A stretch of DNA of 47,996 bases from a virus, in IMG/VR virus record IMGVR_UViG_3300034736_000504, positions 1 to 47,996 of that record. One strand, given 5' to 3'. Every line of letters starts with the position of its first letter. Within the stretch, counting starts at the first letter, position 1. A program made the translations under genes and the position numbers. Below the pieces are notes generated by a model. That model searched no databases. It saw only the letters and a program-made list of their open reading frames with translations, and had not been told where the DNA came from. Below are positions 1-17,036 of this stretch, piece after piece.

Positions 1-385
1 ACCATCTATTCCACCATTTGCTTCCTGGACTTAGATTAGTTGTCATATGTATACTTTGGTACTTGGGTGCTGTATCACTACAGTAATGGTCTATGACCTC
101 CCCAAAGTATTTATAAGCTGTAGGCTCGCCGCCACTAAAACTAAAGTGATAATCAGTAAATCCATTTTCTCTAGCCTGTGCTTTAATATTGTCAATTGCT
201 TGTTTATATACTTCTAATGCTTGATGATCAGGAGTACTACTGCGAGCATAGGGCCAGCAATAGCTACAATTGTAGTTACAAAACCTAGCAAGAATCCAAC
301 TAACTGTAAACAAGTTTGTGTTCAACAGCGTCTTTTGTCCGAAGCTTGTTATATCTTCAAATGGTATGTTTTGAAAGTTACTCAT
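1..385 (-). CDS. Radical SAM enzyme (C-terminus beyond window edge)
   Basis: The first 128 residues are present and the rest runs off the left edge. A canonical radical-SAM motif CX3CX2C (CNYNCSYC) lies at residues 36-43, where it would hold a [4Fe-4S] cluster that cleaves S-adenosylmethionine. The SAM-contact motif SGGEP follows at residues 84-88. The ATG overlaps the TGA stop of the preceding gene (ATGA), so translation is probably coupled. Unlike the four Twitch-type proteins upstream, it has only about 35 residues before the core motif, so any auxiliary cluster would have to be C-terminal and outside the window. It is the thirteenth gene of the operon that begins at 13415. The family is certain; the substrate is unknown. 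Confidence 0.9.
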   Translation of the reverse strand, partial: MSNFQNIPFEDITSFGQKTLLNTNLFTVSWILARFCNYNCSYCWPYARSSTPDHQALEVYKQAIDNIKAQARENGFTDYHFSFSGGEPTAYKYFGEVIDHYCSDTAPKYQSIHMTTNLSPGSKWWNRW

Positions 386-1428
386 TTTCTACTATCGTAT
401 AACGCTTTAGAGCATACTTTAACACAAGTTAGGCATTTATTCTTTCCTTGCCAAAAGTCTGGCATTTTTTTAAATAAATTTTCGTTAGTGTTTAAGACAG
501 CATCGTGGCAGTTAGGCACGCCTACAGTTTTTAATATAGTCTTTGTGTTGTCTACACTTAAATTTCTAAGATAATGAATTGGTAATTTTTCTTCCACTGG
601 TTGTTCAATATATTCACCGCCTATCCAACAGCAAGGAAATATATTACCATAAGGATCTATATAAACACCTTTCTCAGTTACGCACTTAGGCTCAATTATT
701 GCTGATTCAACTGCTGCGTTACGCACCGCTGGGTCTACAAGTGCATTTAAACTATTATTAGGAGTTTTTTTAAACCTTTCTGTTTGTGCAGGAGCAATAG
801 TGTATTCTACATTACCATTGTTATCGTGTACTTCAAACTCTTTCATTTCGTAAAATCGTGTAGTACTTACAAAGTTTACTTCTTGTACACCTAATGATAA
901 TAGATAACTTTCTAATTCATCTACTTCGTGCTCGTTATGTTCAAACACTAAGCTATCAACACGGGCAATGCCTCCTGCATCACAGAATGCTTTTAAGTTT
1001 TCGATCACTTTATCAAATTTTGTATTCTTACGGTATAATTCGTGTTTGCCTTTAAATCCATCAACAGCAAACGCAACATCAATATTATGCTGTGCTAGTT
1101 TTGTCCACCATTCAGGATTGCGCATGCCTCCATTAGTATGTATTCCTAACCGAACTGTAGGATTGCATTCGCGTACATAAGAATATATTTCTAAACAATC
1201 ATTTGCAAAAGCTGGGTCACCATAGTTACCACAACTATAAAAATTATCCAACTGTGCTAAAAACTGTTTAGGAAACCATTCTTTAAATTGTGCAATGCTT
1301 ATATCTCCATTACGAATAAAAGGTCGAGTGGCACCGCCGTGAAAGTTTCTAGCACACATTGGACATTGTGCTTGACATTTATCAGTTAGTTCAATGTGTA
1401 CTGTTTTAATGTCACTTACAAGTTGCAT
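382..1428 (-). CDS. Radical SAM / SPASM domain protein
   Basis: This 348-residue protein has the CX3CX2C motif at residues 18, 22 and 25 (CQAQCPMC). A divergent SAM-contact segment, GNYGDPA, replaces the usual GGEP. The C-terminal part is a classical SPASM domain: Cys249, then a G-x-I-F-P-C-C segment with Cys266/267, Cys317, and the cluster Cys332, Cys335, Cys339. SPASM domains hold auxiliary Fe-S clusters, and family members often modify peptides or proteins, though sugar substrates are also known. I chose the ATG at 1428 because AGGAG lies 7 bases upstream at 1436-1440. The in-frame ATG at 1458 adds ten residues and has no comparable ribosome site. It overlaps the glycosyltransferase upstream by 17 bases and the next radical-SAM gene by 4. 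The substrate is unknown. Confidence 0.9.
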   Translation of the reverse strand: MQLVSDIKTVHIELTDKCQAQCPMCARNFHGGATRPFIRNGDISIAQFKEWFPKQFLAQLDNFYSCGNYGDPAFANDCLEIYSYVRECNPTVRLGIHTNGGMRNPEWWTKLAQHNIDVAFAVDGFKGKHELYRKNTKFDKVIENLKAFCDAGGIARVDSLVFEHNEHEVDELESYLLSLGVQEVNFVSTTRFYEMKEFEVHDNNGNVEYTIAPAQTERFKKTPNNSLNALVDPAVRNAAVESAIIEPKCVTEKGVYIDPYGNIFPCCWIGGEYIEQPVEEKLPIHYLRNLSVDNTKTILKTVGVPNCHDAVLNTNENLFKKMPDFWQGKNKCLTCVKVCSKALYDSRK

Positions 1429-3340
1429 TAAATCTCTCCTGTAACCATTCAAAGTCATTTATTAGCCGAAGATTAGAGCTGCTAGAAATCCCAAACTCCC
1501 TGCCAGCGATAGCACCTTTAATAGCAAACTCGCCGAAGGGCACATTTCTTCCCATTGTTGTCCATATATGTAATCTTTCTTCTGATTCATTATCTACTTG
1601 TCCCCTTATTGCTTTTGATGATAATTTGCAACATTCTCTAAATGCACTTTTCCAAGTTTCAAAAGCGCCAATATTAAATGCTGCAATGTTACTAACTTTA
1701 GGCATTGCATTAAATTTTGAACTAATACTAGTTGTCATATCTGTTGTAGTTACGTCCATATTAATTGTTTCTTTAACTGGAAATAATTTTACTCCGCCGT
1801 ACCCATATTCTAAATCATTAATAGGATTCTTACTTCTCCAAACAAATACTTGATCTCTTTGCCACTTAGGTACCTGGTAATCAAAAGTAAAATTGTCAAG
1901 TACATATGCATCACCATCTACTACCCAAAACATATTTGTGTCACATAGATTAGCAGCTTTTATATGCGCTTGATGTATTCCTTTTACTCCGTGTACCCGC
2001 TTTATACGAGGAAACTTTTTAGCAAGTCTTTCAAAGTTTTCATCTGCGTTAGACTCGTTATAACTAATAAAAACTATATCGTATAGCTTCGGCGCAGACG
2101 CTTCTATGTTAACTTCTTTTTTCTGTGTAAAGAATCTATAATCAAATTCACGTTGTGCAAGCTTTTTATCTTTATGTATCAAAAATATACCATCATGATA
2201 TTTGCCGTTTTTAAATACATGGACATTGTCTTTTTGATGTGACGAAATTTGATAATCAAACTTAAATGTAACATCAACATCTTCTGGTACAACATAGAAG
2301 AAATCAGTCGATGTTGTTTCCTTTGCTTTACAATAATCATTGTAATTGCTTACTACAAAAGCATCGTATGGCTTAGGCCTACTTGCTTGAATGTCATGTT
2401 CTTTTTTATTTGTTATAAATTTATAATCAAACTCTCGCTGGCTAATTTTACTATGCTTGCTACACAATATGATGCCATCATAATATTTGCCATTTTTAAA
2501 TACGTGATTTATCTTCCTATCAAATTCAGCATCGTGACTAAAGTATAAATCAAATTCAAAGCTATCGTTAACATAAACGTGGGATGGCACCAACCAAAAC
2601 ATTTCTGTTTTACAAGTATTAAATATTTTTAGATATTCGTTGTAGCTACTAACATTGTGTGAAATATCATATTGCCTAGGGCCACTTACTACATCATCCC
2701 ATTGTTTTGCATTTACTAAAAATCTATAGTCTATTTGTCTTTTATTAAGAGGCTTATGTTTTGAACAAAGAAACACACCATTATATAAATCTTTGCTATC
2801 TACCCTATGAACAAATGCATGGTTTTCTTTTCTATCATAACTGTTGTGATGACTAAAATAAAAGCTGTCAATATATGACTTAATGTATTTTAAATTATGC
2901 GACACAGCCCAAAACATTTCAGTAGAACTGTTTTCTAAGGCGTGTTCGTAATCATCCCAATTATCAACATAAAAGGTATCAAACGCCTTGGGTGTACTTG
3001 CTATAATGTCTACTTCTTTTTTGTTTAGAAAGAATCGATGTGCAAGTTCACGAGAGCTAATGCTTAACTTTTTTGGAACCAATAGCACACCGTCATAGTA
3101 TTCACTGTTTAAAAACGTATGAACAATATCTTGACTCCATTCATCTGCTACATAGTCAAATTTAAAGTCATCGGATATATCAATGTCAGGCCAGACTACC
3201 CAGAACATTTTAGTAAGCACTTTACGTTGGGCTTGCTCAAATGTATCAGCTTTTTTAGCTCTTGGATATGCATCTTTAAGTTTATTCCACGCTTCGATTG
3301 CATAGCTAGAGTTATTGGTTATAAAGACAATATCAGACAT
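1412..3340 (-). CDS. Glycosyltransferase-like protein with four degenerate module repeats
   Basis: This 642-residue protein is built of about 100-residue units. Each has a MFW-x-V core (residues 45, 142, 247, about 347 and 470), then F-x-FDY, an H-x-F-x-NGKYYDG segment, an REFDYRF segment and an AS-x-PK-x-YD end. Only the last unit has a DxD-type metal/sugar-nucleotide motif (D475-G-D477). From about residue 420 to the end it aligns by eye with the 299-residue protein at 9926-10825, sharing KRVHGV, a YGxGG segment and DFEWL near the C-terminus. I read it as a GT-A-like transferase fused to four degenerate copies of its own core, which may bind substrate or act as spacers. It starts 15 bases after the upstream gene with only a weak ribosome site. 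The donor and acceptor are unknown. Confidence 0.65.
   Translation of the reverse strand: MSDIVFITNNSSYAIEAWNKLKDAYPRAKKADTFEQAQRKVLTKMFWVVWPDIDISDDFKFDYVADEWSQDIVHTFLNSEYYDGVLLVPKKLSISSRELAHRFFLNKKEVDIIASTPKAFDTFYVDNWDDYEHALENSSTEMFWAVSHNLKYIKSYIDSFYFSHHNSYDRKENHAFVHRVDSKDLYNGVFLCSKHKPLNKRQIDYRFLVNAKQWDDVVSGPRQYDISHNVSSYNEYLKIFNTCKTEMFWLVPSHVYVNDSFEFDLYFSHDAEFDRKINHVFKNGKYYDGIILCSKHSKISQREFDYKFITNKKEHDIQASRPKPYDAFVVSNYNDYCKAKETTSTDFFYVVPEDVDVTFKFDYQISSHQKDNVHVFKNGKYHDGIFLIHKDKKLAQREFDYRFFTQKKEVNIEASAPKLYDIVFISYNESNADENFERLAKKFPRIKRVHGVKGIHQAHIKAANLCDTNMFWVVDGDAYVLDNFTFDYQVPKWQRDQVFVWRSKNPINDLEYGYGGVKLFPVKETINMDVTTTDMTTSISSKFNAMPKVSNIAAFNIGAFETWKSAFRECCKLSSKAIRGQVDNESEERLHIWTTMGRNVPFGEFAIKGAIAGREFGISSSSNLRLINDFEWLQERFNATCK
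2096..3340 (-). repeat. Four tandem ~100-residue protein repeats in the glycosyltransferase-like gene
   Basis: Residues 1 to about 415 contain four units with the shared order MFWxV, FDY, NGKYYDG, REFDYRF and xASxPKxYD. The residues aligned with the catalytic DGD of the fifth unit are PDID, SHNL, PSHV and PEDV, so the DxD spacing is lost or shifted. The similarity is clear in protein, and less so in DNA, which suggests an old expansion. Confidence 0.7.
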
Positions 3341-3355
3341 AGTTATAGTTTACAC

Positions 3356-4663
3356 TCATTCCCACCGCATGTCAACAAATAATTCTAAAAATTTTGATTG
3401 CATACGGCGTTCAAAGAATAATTGTTGATTCTTTTTTAAGAAAGGAATACTTTCATTCATTAATTCTGTTAACTTTTCCTTAGGCATATCAGCTAGCCAT
3501 TGCAAATTGTTAACTATTTCATTAGAACGTTTGGCAGAGTTATAAATGCTGTCATAATGTTGGTTAATTAATTCGTTGCAACTAAAGTAACCTTCGCTAT
3601 TTAAATATGTCATAGTATCTACATTGCCTAGTATCATAAAGGGATGTCCTAATGCAATACTTTGCCAAACTTTTAGACCTGGTGATAATGCTGCAATTTC
3701 ATTTCTATAGCTAGTATGTGTATCTACAAAATTTTCGTCACAAATAATTGTTACTACAGTATTTTCTAATAATTCGTTATCATAATATAGTATGTCAGTA
3801 TTATTAGATATAGGTAACTTAGATAGATTTTTAAATATACCACGCTTTTGATCTTTTTCTAGCATACTTGCTCTAGGATTAATATGATTATCGTTAAGAG
3901 TAGTTACTTGATAGTTACCTATATCAAAGTTAAAATTACCAAACTTTAACATATTTTTGTAAATTAATTCTAAGTAAAGTGCTATGTCATGATCTCGAGG
4001 ATGTGTAGAAACTACATTAAATAAAGTATTAGGTTTCCAACTAGAATGATCAATCAATTTGTCATTTGCTTTAAACAAGAAATTAGCGTCTTGTGGTGCA
4101 ACCCAGTCTAGGTTAGACTGTCCGAACCTTACTTTATAAATTATCTGAGAATATATCTGGCACCAATCTATTCCATACACATTTTCTAATTCTAATAGAT
4201 GTTTGTATGTACACCGTATATCACCTAATACAACATAGATACTATCTTTAGATATTCCTGAATCAATAAGTCCATGTATGTGTTTTTTAAGTTGTAGTGC
4301 TTTCCACAAGCTACCCGTAAACGACGGTGCTAGTATTAATAACTTCATACGTTGTTTTTTTATAAGTTGCTTTGCCCTGGGAGAAATAAGATGCACCCAA
4401 TCTCTATTCCATCTGTGAAATAAATCAGTTATTTCTAATGGATAGAATAAATTAGTTGCCCGCTGTTTTCCTGTAAACAAATCTATTACAATTTTATTTG
4501 CTTTCATTACAAAATAAAACGTGTTTATTATATTAATAGGCGACGATATTGTTTTATTTTTATTAAACGGAATCTGTCTAATGTCTTTAGTAAGGCCAAT
4601 ATTAGTCGTTCCGTTTGGCGCAGGAATACCGTCTATAATATTATCGTAATAAAAGTTTATCAT
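3356..4663 (-). CDS. Unknown protein, possibly glycosyltransferase-like
   Basis: This 435-residue protein has no motif I can assign firmly. The C-terminal third contains a segment (LKVWQSIALGHPFMILGN) followed by an acidic/aromatic tail, which recalls the nucleotide-sugar-binding half of GT-B or exostosin-like transferases, but no catalytic residue can be pointed to. The ATG at 4663 is preferred: it gives a 23-base overlap with the upstream gene and has an AAAGAG stretch before it. An in-frame ATG at 4708 would add 15 residues with no ribosome site. Its place between a glycosyltransferase-like gene and a radical-SAM gene in the same operon supports a role in the same modification pathway. That role is inferred from context only. 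Confidence 0.6.
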   Translation of the reverse strand: MINFYYDNIIDGIPAPNGTTNIGLTKDIRQIPFNKNKTISSPINIINTFYFVMKANKIVIDLFTGKQRATNLFYPLEITDLFHRWNRDWVHLISPRAKQLIKKQRMKLLILAPSFTGSLWKALQLKKHIHGLIDSGISKDSIYVVLGDIRCTYKHLLELENVYGIDWCQIYSQIIYKVRFGQSNLDWVAPQDANFLFKANDKLIDHSSWKPNTLFNVVSTHPRDHDIALYLELIYKNMLKFGNFNFDIGNYQVTTLNDNHINPRASMLEKDQKRGIFKNLSKLPISNNTDILYYDNELLENTVVTIICDENFVDTHTSYRNEIAALSPGLKVWQSIALGHPFMILGNVDTMTYLNSEGYFSCNELINQHYDSIYNSAKRSNEIVNNLQWLADMPKEKLTELMNESIPFLKKNQQLFFERRMQSKFLELFVDMRWE

Positions 4664-5819
4664 GCCACTCTTTAAATATTTCTTCGTACTGTTGATTACG
4701 TATGACATCTAACCGTTTGTTTTCATCAAAGAACTTTTCAAACGCTTGTGGATCATCTTCTTGACTTAGAAAATTATTTATTTGATTGTAAAATGGCATG
4801 TCGACAATTTTGTTTAAAATGGCTTGCTTGGCATGTTGAGGTGCGTTTGCTGCACTATAGTAATTTGGATGGTGTACCATATTATGCGAAACATTTACTC
4901 CTCTTGCACGGAAGTATTCCCAGAACTCTTTAATGTAGTAAATGTTCATTATACTAATAGTTTGTAGTATATATGTTTTGTGACCTAGGCTATGTAACCA
5001 TTCAAACGATTTTAGAATTTTATCCCATTTAGCAGGATGACGTAGGTAATTATTCCTATCTTCTAAATCATCAATTGACACCATAAATTCAACTTGCTTA
5101 AATGCATTCCACAAGTCTATATACTTGTCGTTAATAATTGTGCTATTTGTACTATAAACTAATGTAATGTTTTTTGCTAGGTCTTTAGTAATTAAAAATT
5201 CTAAAAATTTCATATGTTTGTCTACAAGTAACGGCTCGCCGCCATTTATATAAACTTTGCGTGTGTTGTTACAATGCTCTGCTAAGTTTGCCCAAAATTG
5301 CTCGTCTAGTGGCCAATTAAACAATGACTGCGGCATATCAAATTTTCTATCATTTAATTTTTCCCAATCACTTATCCACTTAGAACTGCTTTGCGGATTG
5401 CAACTGCGGCATGCTAAATTACAAATGTTACCTAGTCGTAATTCAATAAATTCAAAGTTAACTTCTGTTAATGTGCCATCAGACTGTGTAATACGCTGTG
5501 CATCTTGTAAGCTAAACTCTAATAAGCTAGTATCACGAGTACGCTTGCTTTCATTTCCTAATGCCTCGAGCTTGTAACACTTTGAACACGGCGATGGCAT
5601 TTTGCCATCTAACATGTCTTTACGGACTTGCTTAAACATATCCGAATTCATTATTTTTTCAAAGTCGTATGTGCTGTTATTTAATGTAATAAATTCACGT
5701 GGCAAATTCTGTGCTTCACTTGCACGATTAGTCATGTCGCTTTCACAACATAAAGTGACACTTCCGTGCGGGTGTGTTGCTAAATGTGTCCACGGTAACG
5801 GGCAAAATGTTTTACTCAA
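4641..5819 (-). CDS. Radical SAM protein with N-terminal Twitch domain
   Basis: With a TTG start this protein has 392 residues. The N-terminal part carries SPASM/Twitch-like cysteines (FCPLPW with Cys6, then Cys24/25, then CxxC at 78-81). The radical-SAM motif CX3CX2C is at 133, 137 and 140 (CNLACRSC), with GGEPLL after it. The auxiliary-cluster half therefore precedes the core. I chose TTG because it gives TTGAGTAA, an 8-base overlap identical in form to the ATGAGTAA junction at 12218 in the same operon, and the peptide then begins MSKTFC, as the other begins MSKGFC. A GTG at 5849 is also possible and would add ten residues. The substrate is unknown; such enzymes often modify peptides or sugars. 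Confidence 0.88.
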   Translation of the reverse strand: MSKTFCPLPWTHLATHPHGSVTLCCESDMTNRASEAQNLPREFITLNNSTYDFEKIMNSDMFKQVRKDMLDGKMPSPCSKCYKLEALGNESKRTRDTSLLEFSLQDAQRITQSDGTLTEVNFEFIELRLGNICNLACRSCNPQSSSKWISDWEKLNDRKFDMPQSLFNWPLDEQFWANLAEHCNNTRKVYINGGEPLLVDKHMKFLEFLITKDLAKNITLVYSTNSTIINDKYIDLWNAFKQVEFMVSIDDLEDRNNYLRHPAKWDKILKSFEWLHSLGHKTYILQTISIMNIYYIKEFWEYFRARGVNVSHNMVHHPNYYSAANAPQHAKQAILNKIVDMPFYNQINNFLSQEDDPQAFEKFFDENKRLDVIRNQQYEEIFKEWHDKLLLR

Positions 5820-7122
5820 TTGAATCCCACCATTGTTTTCCTGCAACACTTAAAGTTTCTCTAAATGTAACTTTCTGTTGTCGAATACTTTCTAAATATA
5901 AAATATTCTTTTTACCTCTGCGCCACCCGTCTTTATAATTAGGATATGCTTCTTCAAAAGTTGGACGAGTAAGCATATTCTCAAGGGTTTCTTGATAAAC
6001 TTTAGTTTTAGATGTTACTCTAGGATTAATGTAGTCTAATAATTCATGTATTTGCTCGTCTAGTACTGACCTAGGTAAACACATTGGACTCATTAATACA
6101 CTTGGATCAAATGCAAACGTAATTTTAAAGTAACTCTTTACATTAAGATCAGTGACTACATCAAACATTGCACGTAAATCAAACAAGCCTGGCGTAGTTA
6201 GTGTCACATCGAAAACCATTGCATCATTGCCGTACTTGTTTATTAGAAACATGCCGTCTTTAAAGTTCTGCAACCATTCGTTCCAGTTTAACCCTGTTCG
6301 TATATACTCGCCTACATCGCCTACTCCATCAATACTAGCACAAATGTTTACACGCTTAAAGTTATCTAGCATATTATATAGCTTATAGTCTTTGTAGTGC
6401 GTTCTTGACAAGTTAGTATTATATCGTACTACTACATTTTCGCTTTGTTTGGAGTCAACTAGCTGTTGCATTATACGCCAATGTATATCATACATAAGTG
6501 GTTCACCGCCTACCCAATACAACTCTTCAACTATGCCCTTGTCAACTGCTTCTTGGAGCTCTGTTTCAAGTACTTCTTTCTGGAAAGTGGCAATCTTCTT
6601 ACGAGTGTTAGGCTGCATCCACTTTTCAGTGTCGTAGTTAACTTTATTGTGCTTTATCTTTTCAGTTTCCCAACTCGAACTTAGCTGTTCGCCGCACATT
6701 CGACACTTAAAGTTACATAAGTTACTAATACGATAATCAAAGCTAATAGGCTGCATGGAAGTGTAGCCATCTTCTCGTGTGCTTGCAATTATATCTTCAA
6801 CTTTATGCGAAAATAAGTTTTTAGTAAAATAGTCTTTATAAGTATGCAAGTTTAGAACTTGATTATTACACACATCACACTGACTAATCTTTTCACCTGC
6901 AAGAATACGCTTGCGAATATCTTTCATATACTCACTATTCCAATGCTCGTCTAAGCTTATTGGCGCAAACTCTGTGTTATCACTGTCACCGGCGTCAATA
7001 TATTGCTTTTGAAAGCTTGCATCTTCTCTACTAGCACAACACAATCTACGTTCGCCCTGTGGGCTAACATAAGTGTGGGTCCATGGTGCTGTACAAAAGT
7101 ATGGACCAACTTTATCAGTCAT
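5812..7122 (-). CDS. Radical SAM protein with N-terminal Twitch domain
   Basis: This 436-residue protein has the same layout as its downstream neighbour. Auxiliary-cluster cysteines lie at Cys10 (FCTAPWTH), Cys28/29 and CxxC at 82-85. The core CX3CX2C is at 136, 140 and 143 (CNFKCRMC), followed by GGEPLM. The APWTH-x-PQG-x-CC pattern is that of SPASM/Twitch Fe-S sites, here placed before the core instead of after it. The ATG overlaps the upstream stop by 8 bases without a strong ribosome site, so translation is likely coupled. It is only moderately similar to the two larger Twitch proteins upstream, so the four are not recent copies of one gene. The substrate is unknown. Confidence 0.9.
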   Translation of the reverse strand: MTDKVGPYFCTAPWTHTYVSPQGERRLCCASREDASFQKQYIDAGDSDNTEFAPISLDEHWNSEYMKDIRKRILAGEKISQCDVCNNQVLNLHTYKDYFTKNLFSHKVEDIIASTREDGYTSMQPISFDYRISNLCNFKCRMCGEQLSSSWETEKIKHNKVNYDTEKWMQPNTRKKIATFQKEVLETELQEAVDKGIVEELYWVGGEPLMYDIHWRIMQQLVDSKQSENVVVRYNTNLSRTHYKDYKLYNMLDNFKRVNICASIDGVGDVGEYIRTGLNWNEWLQNFKDGMFLINKYGNDAMVFDVTLTTPGLFDLRAMFDVVTDLNVKSYFKITFAFDPSVLMSPMCLPRSVLDEQIHELLDYINPRVTSKTKVYQETLENMLTRPTFEEAYPNYKDGWRRGKKNILYLESIRQQKVTFRETLSVAGKQWWDSIE

Positions 7123-8563
7123 AGGTTGCCAATGGTTTGTCTATATTTTTGTTATCAGGCGTTAGTATCCAGCCTTCTTTTTCGGCAAGTTCCATAATAC
7201 TTGCGTCTGTATCAGGTATGCTATCTACCCAGTCTGTTAGAATATTAGGAAATACACTTAAACTCTTGTTTCTACGAACATCATATTGTGCATAGAACGT
7301 TTTAAAGTCTCGCCACAGTGTAGCAGGATTACTTGTACGTCTATGCGGAGCATCTACTGTGACAAGATAGTCAATTAACCGCTCAACACTTGCAAGTTCA
7401 AACTCGCTCCAGCCAGGCTTGCCTTTATTAAGCTCGTACCAACTAGACAAGTTTGCATGACAATGGTCTTTAATATGATTTGGTAATGCTAATGGGCTCT
7501 GAAAACTTGGAAAACGTAGTAAGTTTAAACTTACACTAGGTTTTCTGCTTTGAGTAAGTTCTTTTAATTTGTACACTTCATCTAAGAAGTCGGTAATTGT
7601 AAACAAGCACAAACTGTTAATAGTCATCATAATATGTACACCTTTAGTATTACCTTCTAAAAGAAGTCTCTTGGTGTTTTCTAACCACTGGTCGTATACT
7701 AAGCCGTCACGTATGTATTCTGCTTGATCGCCTGTTGCTTCACAACTTGTATATACTTCAAAGTGCTTCATGCCATGTGACTTAGCAATTAACTTGTCTA
7801 TAATATCATCTTTAGCAATAAGATTTGAGTTAATAGCAAACCGCATGTCTGATTCTTGTTCATTGAACCAATCAAACAGCTTCCAGGTGTTGCCGCTCAT
7901 TAAAGGTTCACCGCCTGTAATACGCAACTCTTCTAAACTATCTGCTAAACCGTTATCCCACCATTTCCAAAATGCTTGTATGTAAGGATTATCGTCGTCA
8001 TTCTTATACGGCTGTGTCCAACTGCCGTCTTGTCGAAAGGCGCCTGCGCCGTCACTTACAAGGTTAGTGTATTCGCCATTCTTTTTAATATCTTTAGCCC
8101 AAGTTGTACTAAATGATGCATTACAATAAGAACATGCTAAATTACAAGTTCTATCAAATGCAATTTCAAAAGTTTTTAAGTTGACATTGCTGTTATGGTC
8201 CATATCATATGCTTGCTGCAATTCTTTGTCTGTATAGATAATACTTTTAAAAGTCCTATCACTAACAGCATCCGTTTTCATATCTTCCATCTTCCAGCAA
8301 TACTCGCACTCTGCAGGACGTTCACCAGTTTGCATTTGGCGGCGCATCTCTTTCTTATGTTTAGTATTATGGATAGCAGTAAAATCTGCTTCTACTTCTT
8401 CAAGTGGAATTTTATGTGCTGGCGGGTGATGACAACTAGCAGTTGTTCCACTACCTAACCAAGTAGTAGCATTAAACCATTTTGCTCCGCAGAAACTTTC
8501 AGACTTAGTGTCTAAAACTCGTTCTTTGTACTGCTGTAATGTTTCGTCGGGTAATTTAGCCAT
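7115..8563 (-). CDS. Radical SAM protein with N-terminal Twitch domain (paralogue 2 of a tandem pair)
   Basis: This 482-residue protein has Cys25 (FCGAKW), Cys44 in a SCHHPPAHKIPLEE segment and CEYCW at 86-89. The radical-SAM CX3CX2C is at 140, 144 and 147 (CNLACSYC), with TGGEPLM after it. The spacing of the four N-terminal cysteines is the same as in the upstream neighbour, and the segment around SCHHP and IPLEE is nearly the same, so the two genes arose by duplication. A GAGG ribosome site lies just inside the upstream gene end, and the genes overlap by 8 bases. The family is certain. The conserved His-His-Pro beside the second cysteine is a distinguishing feature of this pair. The substrate is unknown. 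Confidence 0.9.
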   Translation of the reverse strand: MAKLPDETLQQYKERVLDTKSESFCGAKWFNATTWLGSGTTASCHHPPAHKIPLEEVEADFTAIHNTKHKKEMRRQMQTGERPAECEYCWKMEDMKTDAVSDRTFKSIIYTDKELQQAYDMDHNSNVNLKTFEIAFDRTCNLACSYCNASFSTTWAKDIKKNGEYTNLVSDGAGAFRQDGSWTQPYKNDDDNPYIQAFWKWWDNGLADSLEELRITGGEPLMSGNTWKLFDWFNEQESDMRFAINSNLIAKDDIIDKLIAKSHGMKHFEVYTSCEATGDQAEYIRDGLVYDQWLENTKRLLLEGNTKGVHIMMTINSLCLFTITDFLDEVYKLKELTQSRKPSVSLNLLRFPSFQSPLALPNHIKDHCHANLSSWYELNKGKPGWSEFELASVERLIDYLVTVDAPHRRTSNPATLWRDFKTFYAQYDVRRNKSLSVFPNILTDWVDSIPDTDASIMELAEKEGWILTPDNKNIDKPLATYD

Positions 8564-9929
8564 TCCAATCCTCTAACAAATTTGCGTATTGTGGGAATAC
8601 TTCTGTAAAATTTTTATTTCTTCGTTTATCGTATGCATGTATGTATCTTACAAAGTCAGCTCTGTGTTCTGTTGCTGGCTCTGTATTACGCAAGTATTCA
8701 CAAAGTCGTTTTATCTGATCAAACTCTTCTAAATAAATCCTAGCATACTTATCTGGACTATAATATTTTAACCAATTCTTACATGCATTTTCAATTGTAT
8801 CAGCTATTCTAACACGATCAGCTTTATCTAAAAGTGTACATTGTAAATGCGGTGGCCAGTGCATTATGTTAATACTAAGCGGCGTCCTGTTCCATTCAAA
8901 ACTAGTATTATGTATTTTACGTAAGTCCATTACTGTCATAATAAAATCTACAAATGTAGGCAAACTTAGTATGTTTATAGTAGTCATAATAGCAACTGTG
9001 CTTTTTGTTTCTTTAAGAATACGCTCTGTATTTTCAATCCAGTCATAATAGTTAAGTCCGTCGCGAGCATACTCAGCTTGTTTGCCTGTACTTTCTAAAC
9101 TAGTATATACATCAACTTTAACTCCAACTGCCGCAAGTTCATTAATTTTATTAATTAATTTATCAATTAACTTCTTTTCAACACAACCATTAGTGTTAAT
9201 AGCAATATCTAAACCTTGCTGCGGATGTTCAAGTAAATAATCTAAAAGTTTCCAAGTATCTTTACTCATAGTCGGCTCGCCGCCTGTAATACGTAATACT
9301 TTTAAATGCGGAAGTGCACCTGGAAACCATTTCCAAAATGCCTCTACATAAGGATTTACTTCTGATTTTTTATAAGGCATCTTTCCGCTAGACTTTAAGT
9401 AGTCTAGATTATGTGAACCGTGTTTAGTTGGATACTCTCCGTTTTGTCTAATGTCTTCCATCCACTTACTGCTAATCTCTGGACTACAATAAGCACATGC
9501 AAAATTACACGCATTACTAAAACTAACTTCTAAGTAACTAGGATATACATTATCTTGCGGATTGCTTTTAGCAATGTCTTCAAATCTGTCCCAGGCCCAC
9601 GAGTCTGATGTTTTATAATGCCTATCTGAAAAGTAATCTTTATCTAAGTCTTCAATTTTCCAACAGTACCCACATTCACTAGGTCGTTCGCCATTTAACA
9701 TTTTAGCACGTTGTTCTTTTTTAAACTTGCTGTTATGCAGTGCCGCTGGGTCTGCTTCTATTTCTTCTAATGGTATTTTATGTGGCGCTGGATGATGACA
9801 GCTATGGTTATATCCGTTTTGCAACATAAGGGTTGTTTGTAACCATTTAGCTGTACAGAAGCTGCAACTAACATTGTTAATTTTTTCTCGCTTGTCTTCT
9901 AGTACTGCAATTCTGTCTTCGTTACTCAT
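8556..9929 (-). CDS. Radical SAM protein with N-terminal Twitch domain (paralogue 1 of a tandem pair)
   Basis: This 457-residue protein has Cys22 and Cys25 (SCSFCTAKW), Cys44 in SCHHPAPHKIPLEE and CGYCW at 86-89. The core CX3CX2C is at 141, 145 and 148 (CNFACAYC), and TGGEPTM follows. It has one more N-terminal cysteine than its paralogue. The ATG overlaps the TGA of the upstream glycosyltransferase gene (ATGA), with an AGAAGAG ribosome site in that gene's end. It is one of six radical-SAM genes in the operon. By family knowledge, Twitch clusters help bind or oxidise the substrate; which substrate is not visible here. Confidence 0.9.
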   Translation of the reverse strand: MSNEDRIAVLEDKREKINNVSCSFCTAKWLQTTLMLQNGYNHSCHHPAPHKIPLEEIEADPAALHNSKFKKEQRAKMLNGERPSECGYCWKIEDLDKDYFSDRHYKTSDSWAWDRFEDIAKSNPQDNVYPSYLEVSFSNACNFACAYCSPEISSKWMEDIRQNGEYPTKHGSHNLDYLKSSGKMPYKKSEVNPYVEAFWKWFPGALPHLKVLRITGGEPTMSKDTWKLLDYLLEHPQQGLDIAINTNGCVEKKLIDKLINKINELAAVGVKVDVYTSLESTGKQAEYARDGLNYYDWIENTERILKETKSTVAIMTTINILSLPTFVDFIMTVMDLRKIHNTSFEWNRTPLSINIMHWPPHLQCTLLDKADRVRIADTIENACKNWLKYYSPDKYARIYLEEFDQIKRLCEYLRNTEPATEHRADFVRYIHAYDKRRNKNFTEVFPQYANLLEDWNG

Positions 9930-10825
9930 CTAGCTCTTCTTATAATTCTAGGAGAATTGTTATAAACATATTTGAAGAATTTACTCTGTTCGGCATCTAA
10001 TGGCTTTGTAGAAATATCAACTCCGGTTCCTGTTAGTATTTCAAATCCTAATCTATTTGCTTCTTCTTCCGGATCTATATCTTTTACTTCATTTTCCCAG
10101 AAACTGTTTAGCCATTCAAAATCACGAACATTTGCATAATCCCAATCTGTACAGTTTGTCATATAACACCCTTGACGTGCGCCTAGTATACTCCACATGC
10201 CGTTTTCAACATCTGCGCCAATTTGGCTCCAGACCATTAACCTATCATAGTTTTGCCACCACACACTCCGCAAGTCTTGTACTTTTGCACCTTGATCTAA
10301 TGACATCTTTACACCTTCACGGAACCCGGCACGCCAGGACTGCCACGGAGTTGCATTTGTATATGACACACTAAAGCTATCATTAAACTGATAGTACTTG
10401 TCATCAAAACAAAATTCAACTTTACCTCGTTCATCAGACGTATCAGAATTTTCATGTGTTTTCATATTGTGTACAAACTTACGTGTCCACATTTTTAATC
10501 CGCCATTACCGTACATTAATCCGTTAACGTGAACATTGCCGCACCAACTGAATACATGCTCGGGTGTAAGACCTAATGCATCAACATCAACTTCCTGATT
10601 AAGAAATTCTTGATCTATAATATTGTCAGCATCTACTGTGATAAAATATTCTGTTTCACTTAGATCTGCACATGCTTTGTGCGCAGCATCACTTCCATGA
10701 ACTCCATGAACACGCTTTGCCCAAGGCACTTTACTACACAAATCTGCATAGTTTTTTTCTGCATTTGGTTCATCATACGATAAAAATATAATGTCTTGAT
10801 CTACAATTTTAATTATTTCGTTCAT
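9926..10825 (-). CDS. GT-A-like glycosyltransferase (DxD)
   Basis: This 299-residue protein begins with a beta-strand pattern (DIIFLSYDEPNAE) typical of a GT-A nucleotide-sugar fold. A KRVHGVHG segment follows, then a TVDADN motif with D65-x-D67 as the probable metal/sugar-nucleotide site. A later YGNGG-LK segment and a DFEWL near the C-terminus recur in the last unit of the protein at 1412-3340, so the two are homologues. The ATG shares one base with the TAA of the upstream gene (TAATG), and GGAAG lies just before it. The role is inferred as sugar transfer to an unknown acceptor. It sits between an unknown gene and the first radical-SAM gene. Confidence 0.7.
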   Translation of the reverse strand: MNEIIKIVDQDIIFLSYDEPNAEKNYADLCSKVPWAKRVHGVHGSDAAHKACADLSETEYFITVDADNIIDQEFLNQEVDVDALGLTPEHVFSWCGNVHVNGLMYGNGGLKMWTRKFVHNMKTHENSDTSDERGKVEFCFDDKYYQFNDSFSVSYTNATPWQSWRAGFREGVKMSLDQGAKVQDLRSVWWQNYDRLMVWSQIGADVENGMWSILGARQGCYMTNCTDWDYANVRDFEWLNSFWENEVKDIDPEEEANRLGFEILTGTGVDISTKPLDAEQSKFFKYVYNNSPRIIRRAR

Positions 10826-11400
10826 TATTCTTCCACTATATGGCTGTAATTTTCAAAGACCTTACCACAGTATACACTCACATCGGTGCGTTGAGCAACC
10901 GTTTTATTTGTTTGTAGTATAGTACATTCCTCGTTAGATAATGCTTCTGAAAATTTAACAGTTAATGTATCAAGCAAGATATTAGGATCATCTTGTTGTG
11001 TGACAAAAATTATATGATTCTTGTCTTTATAATACGCTGTACTGTTTAATAAGTCTTTTAAATTTGGTGATAGTTTTGCTCTCCAGCAAGCATTTTTTAT
11101 ATCCTGTATAATATAAAAAATTAAACTTTCATTATCTAAGTTTTTAGGCAACTGGTGAATACTTTTATCTACGTCAAAACTTTCTAATGTTTTATGTCTA
11201 AATTTTATCTTAAATTTAGTTTTACCGGTATCATCAGGTACTGCAATATAATCTGACAAGAGTTTACGTTCTTCAGTAAAGTCTAGTAACGTTTCCATAT
11301 CAATTTCCATATACGGAGTTGATGTATCTAGTTCGTTTGTGACTTTCCAAATATCGCCGTTGTCTTCTTGGAAGTTAAGATAAAATTTTTGCTGTGTCAT
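10825..11400 (-). CDS. Conserved-looking protein of unknown function
   Basis: This 191-residue soluble-looking protein has no signal peptide, membrane segment or motif that I recognise. It has a few cysteines (CW, EECTIL, VYCGK) without cluster spacing. It starts in an ATGA overlap with the upstream glycosyltransferase-like gene, with AGAGAAA before it, and its stop shares one base with the next start. Tight coupling to two glycosyltransferase-like genes suggests it acts in the same pathway. It could be an accessory or substrate-binding partner for the enzymes; nothing in the sequence decides this. Confidence 0.7.
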   Translation of the reverse strand: MTQQKFYLNFQEDNGDIWKVTNELDTSTPYMEIDMETLLDFTEERKLLSDYIAVPDDTGKTKFKIKFRHKTLESFDVDKSIHQLPKNLDNESLIFYIIQDIKNACWRAKLSPNLKDLLNSTAYYKDKNHIIFVTQQDDPNILLDTLTVKFSEALSNEECTILQTNKTVAQRTDVSVYCGKVFENYSHIVEE

Positions 11401-12218
11401 TTTAATTTCTCTATGATATCGTCTGTTAGGAATTCATCTTCAACATAGTGCAATATACCAGTTTGTAGGAAATTGCCTAATAATAATACTCCGTCATTTC
11501 GATAGTATCTTCCAAGAACAGATGTCCATTTTTCAGGCACTGCCTTCCATTTCTGTGCAGCGGGTTTCATATGTGTCATTGTAATAAAACTGGTTGGGTC
11601 AGTAATTTCTTTTTCGTTACCTAAAATCTTACTTACAATTGCTGCACATAAATCAATACTACACCATTTCTGATAGTTTTCTTTAGCATACTTACTGTAA
11701 AATAACGCCCAATTATTTACTACAATTTCAAGTAAGGTATAAAACTCTTTTGCAGTATCACCTTTTTTAAAGTAATGCAATGCACTATATAAATTAGGAA
11801 GTTCGTTTGAATCAAAAGTTTTTCGATAGTATCTACTAGTAACTACTTCGTTTCGATATGTGTTTACATTGCTTGTAAAGAATAGTTCATGCTTAGATAA
11901 TTCTTTCCACCAATGTGTAATATCACTTACTATTAGCATGTCGGCTTCTAATACAATTGTTTCTTCATACGGACTAGCGTGATAAACTTTCCAACGATTG
12001 TGTATTTTCCAAGCTTCGCCTTCTGCACTATCAGTCCACGGAATAGGAATTATTTGATCAAATACACTTTGCCATTCCAATGGTATAATGTCATTTGTAA
12101 TTAAGCTAATACTTTGATCTGCATTATATTTGTGCAAGCTTAGTGCAAGCGCATATGCTTGACGCACATAATTAGTAGTATCATTGTTTTGGGCAAGTAA
12201 ACAAAATCCTTTACTCAT
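11397..12218 (-). CDS. GT8-like glycosyltransferase-like protein
   Basis: This 273-residue protein starts with FCLLAQNN, followed by a helix and a SISLITND strand, the pattern of GT-A enzymes of the GT8 type. An EADMLIV motif at residues 91-97 stands where GT8 enzymes have DxD (here E91-x-D93). A later ALHYFKKGD segment resembles the acceptor-side strand of the fold. It is a paralogue of the gene just upstream, with the same start pattern (KGxxLxAQNN). The ATG overlaps the upstream stop by 8 bases (ATGAGTAA), with GAGG about ten bases before it. The altered first acidic residue of the DxD makes activity less certain. Confidence 0.65.
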   Translation of the reverse strand: MSKGFCLLAQNNDTTNYVRQAYALALSLHKYNADQSISLITNDIIPLEWQSVFDQIIPIPWTDSAEGEAWKIHNRWKVYHASPYEETIVLEADMLIVSDITHWWKELSKHELFFTSNVNTYRNEVVTSRYYRKTFDSNELPNLYSALHYFKKGDTAKEFYTLLEIVVNNWALFYSKYAKENYQKWCSIDLCAAIVSKILGNEKEITDPTSFITMTHMKPAAQKWKAVPEKWTSVLGRYYRNDGVLLLGNFLQTGILHYVEDEFLTDDIIEKLK

Positions 12219-13071
12219 CTTTTAGTACCTCACTAATTGCCCTGTCAAGACTAAACTTGTTCATTATGTGGATATTAACATCACTTACATGATTAATGTT
12301 GTAATGTCCTTTCCAGTCTTTCTTGTCTATTAAAAACGTATACGATTCATCTTTTAACTTTACTAGTATATCAGCATCAGTTGTAAACCATAAGTTGCCT
12401 GGCATAGTTTTTGGCCAACTTGATACTTGATGACCATTTAAAATATGAATAGCTATACTAAAACTAAAATCGTTGCGATAAGTTATATCAGGAATTTGAT
12501 AAACTAATCTATAGTACAGCCAGTTTTCTTTAATGTGATTAATTAAATCAAACAAAACTTTGTTCCGAGCAGTTTTCTTAAAATAGAAAACAGTAGCCCA
12601 ATACATATCTACACTTCTATCACTAATCTTATCAAATAATTCTTGTCCTTCACGGTCGTGATTTAGATCAGTAACATGGCGATATAACAAGAAATCATCT
12701 GGTGCATCAAATGCATTTAGAAATATATCGTTGCCAACTATAAAGTCAGTGTCCATAACTAGCGTTTCGTCAAACGGTGTAATATCGTATACTGTTCCTC
12801 TGTCATGATTGCGCCATTCTAAGTCCCTATCACTCATAGTACCGTCACGCATAATACGCTTTTGCTTACATTCTTTCCAATCTAATTCAATTACATAATC
12901 AATATATTTTTCATAATATGGATAATTTTCAGTAAGATAATCAGCATTGTCAGTTGCAATTGCAACAGGCAAATTTAAATGTTTCTTAATTTTTTTTGCA
13001 CAAAAGATTGCTTGCTTTATGTAATCGAGAGAATGATTGTTTTGCGCAAAAAGGACCACACCTTTTGTCAT
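12211..13071 (-). CDS. GT8-like glycosyltransferase-like protein
   Basis: This 286-residue protein begins with KGVVLFAQNN and then VAIATDN, as in GT-A nucleotide-sugar-binding folds. A complete DxD (D107-T-D109, within VMDTDFIVGND) is the probable metal site. A WATVFYFKK segment follows, and an HYNINH segment near the C-terminus could supply the histidine ligand seen in GT8 enzymes. It is paralogous to the next gene, but that copy has ExD. The ATG overlaps the upstream TGA (ATGA), and AAGGAA lies about ten bases before it. Sugar donor and acceptor are unknown. Confidence 0.7.
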   Translation of the reverse strand: MTKGVVLFAQNNHSLDYIKQAIFCAKKIKKHLNLPVAIATDNADYLTENYPYYEKYIDYVIELDWKECKQKRIMRDGTMSDRDLEWRNHDRGTVYDITPFDETLVMDTDFIVGNDIFLNAFDAPDDFLLYRHVTDLNHDREGQELFDKISDRSVDMYWATVFYFKKTARNKVLFDLINHIKENWLYYRLVYQIPDITYRNDFSFSIAIHILNGHQVSSWPKTMPGNLWFTTDADILVKLKDESYTFLIDKKDWKGHYNINHVSDVNIHIMNKFSLDRAISEVLKDE

Positions 13072-13415
13072 AAATCAAGTATTCCTTGAACTGTTCTATT
13101 TGTTTTAAGATCGTTGTATTTGTCTAAGTATTCATTACTAGCAGTAAAGTAGATATCAAGCACATTGTCGCAAAAATCATTTACGTTATCTACTTTAATA
13201 GGAGTATCGTTGTCGTCAATGAGAACAGCACTATCTTGTTCTGTTTGTACTAACATATGACAAAAATTTATAAGTTCTCTAGTTACTGAAAACTTGCCGC
13301 CATTTAAATAGTGAATACAATTTTCTAAATATTGCTCTCTGATAATACGTTTTTGACTATTTAATACAGTCATGTAATTAGAAAATTCTAAAGCTTTTTC
13401 TAGACGTTCGTCCAT
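13068..13415 (-). CDS. Small conserved phage protein of unknown function, first gene of the radical-SAM operon
   Basis: This 115-residue protein is mostly predicted helix at the N-terminus (LEKALEFSNYMTVLNSQKR) and has a VLIDDNDTPI segment in the middle. From memory it resembles short proteins of unknown function found near tail-fibre genes of marine T4-like phages; I cannot verify that here. It has the best ribosome site of the operon: GGAGG at 13424-13428, 8 bases before the ATG. The perfect sigma-70 promoter is directly upstream. Its function is unknown. As the promoter-proximal gene it is likely the most expressed of the set. Confidence 0.8.
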   Translation of the reverse strand: MDERLEKALEFSNYMTVLNSQKRIIREQYLENCIHYLNGGKFSVTRELINFCHMLVQTEQDSAVLIDDNDTPIKVDNVNDFCDNVLDIYFTASNEYLDKYNDLKTNRTVQGILDL

Positions 13416-13479: not shown

Positions 13480-14517
13480 TTAAGTATTAACTAATTCTGT
13501 AGAAACGCTGCCGGTAGGTGTTGGCACACTAACAAAGCTGCCAGTAGCTCGTCTTAGGTCAATTCCTGCCTGCATTAGTGAACCAGCACCTAATAGTACT
13601 CGTTCGTCAAAGTTAGGATTGCCTTCAGCTGCGTCATAAAACGAAACTCTAAAGCGGACGAGGCTTGCGCCCACTCGCTTTGCTTGCACTTGGACATAGT
13701 TTGCTGCATATACACTAGATCCAAACTTTCTAAATATTGTTTGAAAACTAGTTGTTAGCTGATAATTGCCCAACGCACTATCAATGCCGCCACCATCAAC
13801 ATCTGTTGACCCATCTCGAGCAAGTCCAGATCCAGTGACGGTTGTTTTGAATTTATCAAAAACAACACTTCCTGCGCCAGCAAGCATTGTAGCCCAGTTT
13901 TGATCTTTAGTTGATAAATTAGTAGAAGTAAAACTTAGTCGAACTTGGCCGCCTGCATTAAAAAAATGTCTTCTATGATCGTCTGGGTTAGAATTTATTC
14001 GATTACCGCTACTATTTGTAGTAGCATATCCACCTGGAAAATCTACATCAAGGTCACAATATATTAAATCATCGGGGTCGCCATCGCCGCCCCAGGCTGA
14101 AGTACGCTGACTAACTAAAAAAGATCTTCCACTAGTTAGTGTATATGCTGTTGAGTGTACTAATGCCGCATTTGCTAAAGTTTCGGCTGTGTTAATGTCA
14201 TTTACCATGTCATTAATACCGTTGTTTGAACTAACACCGTCAGAATTGGCACCAATAACTCTACCAGTAGTAGCTGCTGTCGTTTGTGCGTTCGCAGGTT
14301 GTTGATGATTTAAACATTTGTTAACATCTAACGTTAGCGCATTCCAATGATTTGCGCTAATAAGTTCGTCATTTGTGCTAATAGCATAGTCTTCTGCGGA
14401 TGCTACAATTTGTCCATAGCCTTGCTGGCCGCTTCCATTACCTAGTATTGCTAAGACACGATTCTTAGCATTATTAAATTCAGTAGCTGGAATTAACTGT
14501 CCGGTAATTGCTACCAC
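13480..14517 (-). CDS. Virion structural / tail fibre-associated protein (paralogue B)
   Basis: This 345-residue protein is the last gene of the late operon. It shares with its upstream neighbour an N-terminal pattern (an xxFNxxxNxVxxxLGxGSGQxGYGQ type segment) and a central DHRRxFFNAGGQV motif, followed by a WxxML-x-G segment and IGNYQLTxxxQT. These mark a family of structural proteins seen in marine T4-like phages, probably part of the tail fibre or distal tail. The start is GTG, with AGGAG about nine bases upstream inside the preceding gene's last codons, and the two genes are 3 bases apart. Its exact place in the virion is not known. Confidence 0.7.
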   Translation of the reverse strand: MVAITGQLIPATEFNNAKNRVLAILGNGSGQQGYGQIVASAEDYAISTNDELISANHWNALTLDVNKCLNHQQPANAQTTAATTGRVIGANSDGVSSNNGINDMVNDINTAETLANAALVHSTAYTLTSGRSFLVSQRTSAWGGDGDPDDLIYCDLDVDFPGGYATTNSSGNRINSNPDDHRRHFFNAGGQVRLSFTSTNLSTKDQNWATMLAGAGSVVFDKFKTTVTGSGLARDGSTDVDGGGIDSALGNYQLTTSFQTIFRKFGSSVYAANYVQVQAKRVGASLVRFRVSFYDAAEGNPNFDERVLLGAGSLMQAGIDLRRATGSFVSVPTPTGSVSTELVNT

Positions 14518-14520
14518 GTA

Positions 14521-15453
14521 TTAATCTCCTACTTCGAGGCTTGACTGCATAGAATAACTTGGTGCTGGTACATTTACATAGGACCCTGTAGGACGGCGGA
14601 GTTGCACTTTACTAACAAGTATACCCGGAATTGATTCATCTACATTAGGATCGCCTACGTCTTGATCTTGGAATTGTATAACAAACTGAATTGCTTTATT
14701 GCTAACTTCTTTAGCAAATATTAAATATCTGTTTTCTGCATAATTATCGTTACCCAACCGTTCAAACAATGTTTGTAGTCCTGCTGTTAATTGATAATTA
14801 CCAATTGCAGTATTAGGAGCGATTGGAAATAATGTGCCGCCAAATCCTGTTTTTGATGTAGTGTTTGCTTTAAATTGAATAGTTCCCATGTTGTTAAGCA
14901 TAGTTTTCCAATCGTCAGCTTTTGCTTTCCACGGCCCGTCACCTGGGCTTTCAATCTGCGCACTAATATAAACTTGTCCGCCGGCATTAAAAAACGCTCT
15001 TCGGTGATCAGTAGTACTAAATGTTAACGTAAAGCTATGTGCCAATTGACCATTCCACGGTGAGAATCTTGTGTCAGAGTCTAATGTTTCTATAGTTATT
15101 TGTGTTCCGTCAACTACTCCAGCATCACCTTCTAGTCTTTCAACCTCGGTTAAGTATTGATTAAACCCGTCATTATCGCCTACATTAACTTCGTTAGCCT
15201 TTACCGTTGAAGATTGTGTAACGGCTGATAATGCAGTTGCTGATCCAGCTTGGTGTATAGATATTCTATTAATGTCTAATAATAACTGATTCATATCACT
15301 AGCATAAACTATACTTTCAGCAGCAACAGGTGCGCTATTAAGTGTTTGTCCATAACCAGTTTGGCCAGACCCGTCGCCTAATAGTCTCGATACCTTATTT
15401 TGAAGAGTATTGAAGTTCGCTGCGGAAATTCTTGTGTATGCGTTTACTGCCAT
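14521..15453 (-). CDS. Virion structural / tail fibre-associated protein (paralogue A)
   Basis: This 310-residue protein is homologous to the gene that follows: LGDGSGQTGYGQ near the N-terminus, DHRRAFFNAGGQVYIS in the middle, a WKTMLNNMG segment and IGNYQLTAGLQTLFERLG. It has no signal peptide or membrane segment, as expected for a virion protein. It has its own late promoter (TATAAATA at 15479-15486) and a TAGGAAC ribosome site just before the ATG. A role in the fibre or distal tail is inferred from position after the fibre genes. Confidence 0.7.
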   Translation of the reverse strand: MAVNAYTRISAANFNTLQNKVSRLLGDGSGQTGYGQTLNSAPVAAESIVYASDMNQLLLDINRISIHQAGSATALSAVTQSSTVKANEVNVGDNDGFNQYLTEVERLEGDAGVVDGTQITIETLDSDTRFSPWNGQLAHSFTLTFSTTDHRRAFFNAGGQVYISAQIESPGDGPWKAKADDWKTMLNNMGTIQFKANTTSKTGFGGTLFPIAPNTAIGNYQLTAGLQTLFERLGNDNYAENRYLIFAKEVSNKAIQFVIQFQDQDVGDPNVDESIPGILVSKVQLRRPTGSYVNVPAPSYSMQSSLEVGD

Positions 15454-15478: not shown

Positions 15479-15486
15479 TATTTATA
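15479..15486 (-). promoter_or_regulatory. T4-type late promoter (TATAAATA)
   Basis: Exact match on the minus strand to the T4 late consensus TATAAATA, 26 bases before the ATG at 15453. The TAA at 15484-15482 inside it is the stop codon of the preceding gene. It would be read by RNA polymerase carrying gp55, which is encoded at the right of this window. Confidence 0.8.
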
Positions 15487-17005: not shown

Positions 17006-17028
17006 TATATACCCCTATTGCGACTTAG

Positions 17029-17036
17029 TATTTATC
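17029..17036 (-). promoter_or_regulatory. T4-type late promoter (GATAAATA)
   Basis: GATAAATA on the minus strand, 24 bases before the ATG at 17005 and directly after the TAA stop of the upstream fibre gene. It matches the late consensus at seven of eight positions. Confidence 0.7.

Follow-up and report, generated by a model that had tools for sequence, protein, structure and literature searches.

Gene content of the island

The sequence analysed here, called the window, is a 47,996-base stretch of DNA from the IMG/VR virus record IMGVR_UViG_3300034736_000504. Its first 13.4 kb (positions 1-13415) carry a run of minus-strand genes, downstream of tail fibre genes on the same strand, in which radical S-adenosylmethionine (rSAM) genes are combined with genes for likely glycosyltransferases (GTs). 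Counted from the fibres, the gene order of this island is X115, GTb, GTa, X191, GT1, R6, R5, R4, R3, X450, GTrep, R2 and R1 (Table 1). Neighbouring genes between R1 and X115 overlap or abut, apart from a single gap of 15 bp, and the linkage to fibre genes is real, in agreement with an earlier note on this DNA, made from the sequence alone, which had described one overlapping operon beside tail fibre genes.

The window derives from a T4-like, jumbo-type myovirus, a large water-borne phage. Its gp6-like baseplate wedge protein is ~35% identical to those of Salicola phage SCTP-2, Atu_ph07, PA5oct and related jumbo phages, and matches phrog_10646 in PHROGs at 1.7e-301. The order of gp6 followed by a giant structural-type protein is identical in cultured jumbo phages, and in the window the fibre genes come next. 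The giant 5295-residue protein was set aside as a substrate of the island enzymes, since jumbo phages ordinarily have a giant protein following gp6.

Table 1 Features of the window
Feature	Positions	Strand	Evidence
R1: radical-SAM protein, truncated at contig end	2..385	-	PF04055 3.9e-11; CNYNCSYC
R2: radical-SAM protein, additional C-terminal Cys	382..1458	-	PF04055 2e-9; phrog_21308 1.4e-22; CQAQCPMC
GTrep: repeated N-terminal modules and C-terminal GT-A-like domain	1412..3340	-	HMM/BLAST homology to GT1; DxD in VVDGDAY
X450: probable GT-B-fold glycosyltransferase	3356..4708	-	AF2 pLDDT 86; Foldseek PDB matches
R3: N-terminal twitch radical-SAM protein	4641..5849	-	NF033640 352 bits; CNLACRSC
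R4: N-terminal twitch radical-SAM protein	5812..7122	-	NF033640 315 bits; CNFKCRMC
R5: N-terminal twitch radical-SAM protein	7115..8563	-	NF033640 300 bits; CNLACSYC
R6: N-terminal twitch radical-SAM protein	8556..9929	-	NF033640 326 bits; CNFACAYC
GT1: GT-A-like glycosyltransferase	9926..10825	-	AF2 pLDDT 91; Foldseek GT-A matches; invariant D65 and D67
X191: no family assignment	10825..11400	-	position in relatives; one sub-threshold Pfam match
GTa: GT8-like glycosyltransferase	11397..12218	-	profile matches glycogenins, E 1.7e-5
GTb: GT8-like glycosyltransferase	12211..13071	-	hhalign to GTa 99.8%; DTD motif
X115: small protein between last fibre gene and GT block, no family assignment	13068..13415	-	synteny; also in G186 island
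F345 and F310: fibre-type proteins, candidate acceptors	13480..15453	-	paralogues adjoining X115; fibre assignment from position
F507, F650, F694: tail-fibre / tail proteins	15482..21073	-	PHROGs tail and tail-fibre families
Giant structural-type protein (5295 aa) and gp6 baseplate wedge: phage backbone	21716..41094	-	phrog_10646; synteny with cultured jumbo phages

A CX3CX2C motif occurs in six separate open reading frames (ORFs), R1 to R6, against a chance occurrence of 0.2-1.4% in composition-shuffled versions of each protein. In all six the motif lies within a Pfam Radical_SAM domain (PF04055); five of the proteins score above the curated cut-off of this family and R5 slightly below it (24.3 versus 29.5 bits), R5 being far above the curated cut-off (170 bits) of the NCBIfam model NF033640 for N-terminal twitch radical-SAM proteins. 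The six separate cores listed in the earlier note are thus supported by motif and by PF04055/NF033640 scores. Full-length matches at 300-353 bits place R3, R4, R5 and R6 in the NF033640 family, whereas R1 (35 bits, from a partial protein) and R2 (36.5 bits) fall outside it and are assigned by sequence as generic rSAM proteins only. R1 homologues in relatives measure about 327-340 residues, and a complete copy is present in the closest relative, L008. The cluster cysteines and the auxiliary cysteines of R5 are invariant among 20 sequences, and its sequence profile retrieved nothing useful from the PDB.

Five likely GTs are encoded in the island, four GT-A-like and one GT-B-like. The earlier note had counted at least four GT-like proteins; the four GT-A-like ones are supported, and X450, GT-B-like, is a fifth that it had not counted. 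Pfam (scanned without GTa and GTb), NCBIfam and PHROGs gave no informative match for the GT-like proteins, including none for GTrep in Pfam or NCBIfam and none for GTa in NCBIfam. Of the sequence profiles compared with the PDB, those of GT1, GTb and X450 yielded nothing useful and that of GTa alone matched. The tentative GT8 assignment rests on the glycogenin match for GTa and on the hhalign alignment with GTa for GTb. The GT1 model has 32 PDB matches below 1e-3 in Foldseek, including polypeptide GalNAc-transferases and S-glycosyltransferases, the best being the PBCV-1 capsid GT 2p6w (E 3.6e-5, probability 1.00, TM-score about 0.3); since the TM-scores are low, these matches support a GT-A fold and no particular substrate. 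A GT-A fold with a DxD motif is thus indicated for GT1 by the model and for GTrep by homology, with fold matches that are distant. The top matches of the X450 model are all GT-B enzymes (WaaA, trehalose-phosphate synthase and VldE), also distant (E about 3e-4, TM-scores 0.22-0.36). In GTrep, several ~100-residue repeated modules precede the GT domain, and their number differs among relatives (proteins of 220 to 741 residues).

Gene order in viral relatives and bacterial chromosomes

Searches of viral contigs in IMG/VR returned 595 encoded relatives of R6 and 253 of GT1, of which 80 were kept from each; cultured phages were absent from the tblastn matches of GT1, GTb, X115 and the C-terminal part of GTrep. 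In gene maps of 50 non-redundant relatives, a block recurs that consists of fibre genes, X115, GTb, GTa, X191 (or an equivalent small gene) and GT1, with X191 nearly always between GTa and GT1. It is followed by a variable cassette, made up of an R6-R5 pair, often R4-R3, and the GT-B-like X450, and then by a GTrep-R2-R1 block. Following the gene order through viral contigs, as the earlier note had advised, therefore found the genes linked in relatives rather than scattered.

Between GT1 and GTrep, 0 to 5 rSAM genes are present across 84 distinct arrangements, and about 36 of the 84 contain none. R5 mostly adjoins R6 in the relatives that carry it. In L051 and L064-L074, which have no rSAM gene in this interval, the R6-R5 pair is located after GTrep, and in L136-L164, a further group of this kind, the genes after GTrep lie on the opposite strand and include no rSAM gene. 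The distances calculated for F310, X115, GTb and GTa are strongly correlated with each other (r 0.83-0.90 in the 50 non-redundant loci carrying them), and the partial correlation of F310 with both GTb and GTa is 0.66 with F507 held fixed. The island thus has two layers that can be separated, a GT block that accompanies the fibres and an rSAM cassette that is gained, lost and shared with bacterial chromosomes.

In the records of long relatives, rSAM genes number 5-16, with 16 in one of 186 kb. In G001, which has 15 in 123 kb, the island extends about 27 kb beyond the R1 homologue and includes, among others, more rSAM genes, Asp/Asn-hydroxylase-like and 2-oxoglutarate (2OG)-Fe(II) oxygenases, a TauD enzyme and a B12-binding-type rSAM protein (L169:17349-19265). 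A nucleoside diphosphate (NDP)-sugar epimerase and UDP-glucose/GDP-mannose dehydrogenases are present in the islands of relatives. In L008, the gene directly after R1 belongs to cluster c75, read from its sequence as UDP-glucose/GDP-mannose-type dehydrogenases; this family was confirmed by Pfam for cluster c24, a different cluster from c75. In L045-L048 and L053-L056, R6-R5-R4-R3 stand in a different viral setting that lacks the fibre/GT block; judged from sequence only, the genes beside them encode a GNAT protein, a fatty-acid desaturase and a pair of 2OG-type oxygenases. The phage order of fibre, GT and rSAM genes is also present in the records L191-L194, filed as metagenome-assembled genomes of Verrucomicrobia, Pelagibacter, Rickettsiales and Betaproteobacteria; these look like contigs of phage origin that were binned with bacterial ones.

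In the genome collection, relatives of R5 come almost solely from Bdellovibrionota. At E 1e-40, R5 is present in 45 of 192 Bdellovibrionota genomes, a sample that contains seven previously known matches (38 of 185 without those seven), versus 1 of 200 genomes in the phylum of a Beijerinckia genome, the single match there being the genome that seeded the control. In the R5/R6 tree, made by a quick method, phage rows are intermixed with Bdellovibrionota rows, at a minimum of 10 forced changes. The neighbours of the bacterial R5 genes (obgE, fur and other genes) revealed no substrate. A protein resembling nucleotidyltransferases, with an SDxDxT/S motif and no Pfam match, recurs near R5 in Bdellovibrionota (L187:11356-12273, L188:19679-20641, L189:3724-4662 and L195:9840-10715).

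GT1 homologues are found in 11 of the 192 Bdellovibrionota genomes, often near homologues of R1, R2, R3 or GTrep. In genome G020, R2 (residues 8-377) is fused to GTrep (residues 396-630) in a single continuous ORF of 635 residues with both motifs intact (L241:16386-18293, minus strand; protein P0001), and genome G186 carries a GT1-GTrep fusion. The chromosomal clusters thus resemble the phage island in having GT1, GTrep, R1, R2, R3 and R6 homologues and the R2-GTrep fusion, but differ from it in being without GTa, GTb, X115 and fibre genes, G186 excepted. G186 is the only one of 369 Bdellovibrionota genomes with GTb. Its island (L237:9060-20000) contains R3, GTrep, R1, F310 (E 9e-42), X115, GTb, GTa, an X191-like ORF, GT1 and further rSAM genes, and none of the other fibre families of the window in the stretch read. 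It stands directly after pheS-pheT on a contig that carries pheS and genes read from sequence as pheT, rplS, trmD and rnhB. Because this contig ends within the island, the island may be part of a larger integrated element. Two layers seem to emerge, namely a fibre-tied, phage-borne block (F310/F345, X115, GTb, GTa and X191) and a chromosome-shared set (GT1, GTrep, R1, R2, R3 and R6/R5).

Proposed function and alternatives

Tentatively, and at somewhat less than an even chance, we propose that the operon forms the glycan section of an island for host recognition, in which the GTs would build a glycan, the rSAM enzymes would edit it and a fibre would accept it. The GTs would assemble a short glycan, on which, as sugar or glycoconjugate, the twitch-type rSAM proteins with their auxiliary Fe-S cluster may perform radical chemistry (oxidation, epimerisation, C-C or C-methyl chemistry), with R2 acting directly with GTrep. 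In a less certain step, the acceptor would be the virion's own fibre, most likely F310/F345, and the glycan would alter adsorption or shield the fibre. Glycan chemistry is the best reading because of the rSAM-GT fusion and the sugar-nucleotide enzymes, and the natural R2-GTrep and GT1-GTrep fusions connect the radical with the GT chemistry. The enzyme set, including the nucleotide-sugar enzymes of relatives, fits a glycan pathway, in line with the multi-step pathway suggested in the earlier note. The fibre is proposed as acceptor because of linkage, the chromosomal F310 island included, and the synteny of fibre and GT genes in the 50 non-redundant loci, whether or not rSAM genes are present, is counted in favour of this proposal. 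The correlation of F310 with GTb and GTa beyond that with F507, the invariant cysteines of R5 and the virion-protein glycosylation encoded by mycobacteriophages are counted on the same side.

Several points weigh against it. The acceptor residue, the sugar and the product would all rest on inference, and the fold matches are distant. Physical linkage alone could yield the correlation between F310 and the GTs. Moreover, Bdellovibrionota chromosomes have clusters of GT1, GTrep and rSAM homologues with no fibre gene in the parts read, and R6-R5-R4-R3 are present in viral contigs without the GT/fibre block; therefore, the rSAM part needs no fibre. The fibre is still the likeliest acceptor, with the host envelope nearly as plausible.

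That the enzymes act on the infected cell's lipopolysaccharide (LPS), capsule or glycolipid and so block superinfection, the fibre linkage being a mere matter of host-recognition location, is a possibility of about one chance in three. Such a role has been proposed for the pelagimyophage islands with GT8 genes and rSAM cassettes (PMC7029224). It is also favoured by the cluster of rSAM, two GT8 and GT4-like genes near a PagP lipid A acyltransferase gene in the cultured Vibrio phage K566, and by the homologous chromosomal GT/rSAM clusters of Bdellovibrionota, some of them with GT2 genes. However, GTb is nearly phage-only, its one chromosomal copy being accompanied by F310 and X115, and the GT block stays at the fibres even in loci without rSAM genes. 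We regard as unlikely a pathway on the phage for a peptide, similar to ribosomally synthesised and post-translationally modified peptides (RiPPs), or for a small-molecule natural product, although many SPASM/twitch rSAM enzymes are peptide maturases. The 2OG-Fe(II) oxygenases, the TauD-type enzyme and the B12-binding rSAM protein in the extended islands of relatives, together with an AMP-binding enzyme in a bacterial cluster, would suit such a product. A precursor peptide gene is nevertheless excluded between R1 and X115, where the overlapping or abutting genes leave no space for one. R1-R6 also score far under the cut-offs of RiPP maturase models, no maturase equivalog passed in NCBIfam, and the genes of the window include none recognised as encoding an exporter or a peptidase. 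Phage GTs and rSAM enzymes modify DNA bases elsewhere, but it is very improbable that the radical and glycosyl enzymes here serve to hypermodify the phage's own DNA. The genes sit with fibres, not with DNA genes, and the GT-free variation expected under it was not seen; the thymidylate synthase/hydroxymethylase family (PF00303 relative) is found in none of 10 long relatives, all of them fragments, which makes this absence a weak argument.

A wider version of the proposed glycan chemistry, which we hold to be rather improbable, is that predatory bacteria and their phages share a pathway in which twitch rSAM enzymes act directly on GT products, as the R2-GTrep fusion would suggest, giving radical-edited glycans on fibre-like adhesins as a new class of hypermodification of virion or adhesin glycans. 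If so, this phage lineage would infect Bdellovibrionota. The data also suggest that jumbo-type phages and Bdellovibrionota are linked by shared genes. Clusters of rSAM genes in phages have been on record since 2010 with no function assigned to them. Here, gene order, copies on the chromosomes of predatory bacteria and the fusion of an rSAM with a GT domain all favour glycan chemistry, and they single out R2/GTrep, and GTb/GTa/GT1 with F310, as candidate partners. If the proposal is true, phages would use radical chemistry to edit glycans on the very organelle that determines their host range.

Comparison with described phage systems

The remark of the earlier note that no described phage system with this full gene set is known goes too far, as the CP220/CPt10 (PMC2853527) and pelagimyophage (PMC7029224) clusters are published precedents. 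Because of these, and of the Vibrio phage K566, Atu_ph07/Phosso and FLC6 cases, this kind of cluster is already known; the present lineage is a distinct, richer variant of it. FLC6 carries rSAM, 2OG-oxygenase and cupin genes (PMC8066314), and phage-encoded glycosylation of virion proteins is known from mycobacteriophages (PMC12363180).

For the Campylobacter phages CP220 and CPt10 (Firehammervirus), Timms et al. report 11-12 rSAM proteins and describe a module of five rSAM genes, which they call interchangeable (PMC2853527). They are likewise T4-like; gp088 and gp089 of CP220 are annotated with nucleotide-diphospho-sugar transferase domains, gp083, gp080 and gp084 match the R2 profile (E 6e-28 to 2e-22), and the module lies about 10 kb upstream of the tail fibre gene gp103, an F507 homologue (E 1.8e-25). 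Their module, however, includes an amidinotransferase, and none was recognised among the window genes scanned with Pfam and NCBIfam, so that the window does not carry a CP220-type module of five rSAM genes and an amidinotransferase. The R3-R6-type N_Twi, GT1, GTa and GTb profiles are also without clear match there. The authors suggest a metabolic benefit, not glycan chemistry (PMC2853527).

In pelagimyophages, rSAM cassettes and GT8 genes are located in the host-recognition cluster, with LPS modification as the proposed function (PMC7029224). The phages are marine and T4-like, with a hypervariable, GT8-bearing island at the tail fibres and rSAM cassettes that vary among near relatives (PMC7029224). 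The window matches this type in its hypervariable, GT-bearing island beside the tail fibres of a T4-like phage, the VrlC-gp14 position being outside the comparison. Pelagimyophages are nevertheless another phage group, and the number and type of their rSAM genes were set beside those of the window by description, not by sequence.

The jumbo phages Atu_ph07 and Phosso have homologous b204 and F507-type fibre genes with an rSAM cluster directly after them, in the same syntenic place, but their rSAM proteins are from other families, a JmjC/cupin gene is present in Atu_ph07 and GT1, GTa and GTb have no match. In Vibrio phages K566 and K567, rSAM genes matching the R3 profile (E down to 5e-43) are interleaved with two GT8 genes and a GT4-like gene. 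They differ from the window in that the 41 kb read around the cluster bear no annotated fibre gene, the GT1, GTa and GTb profiles have no match, identity is 26% and a PagP gene is nearby. The PagP-type lipid A acyltransferase gene near the K566 rSAM/GT8 cluster is located at L227:29978-30427.

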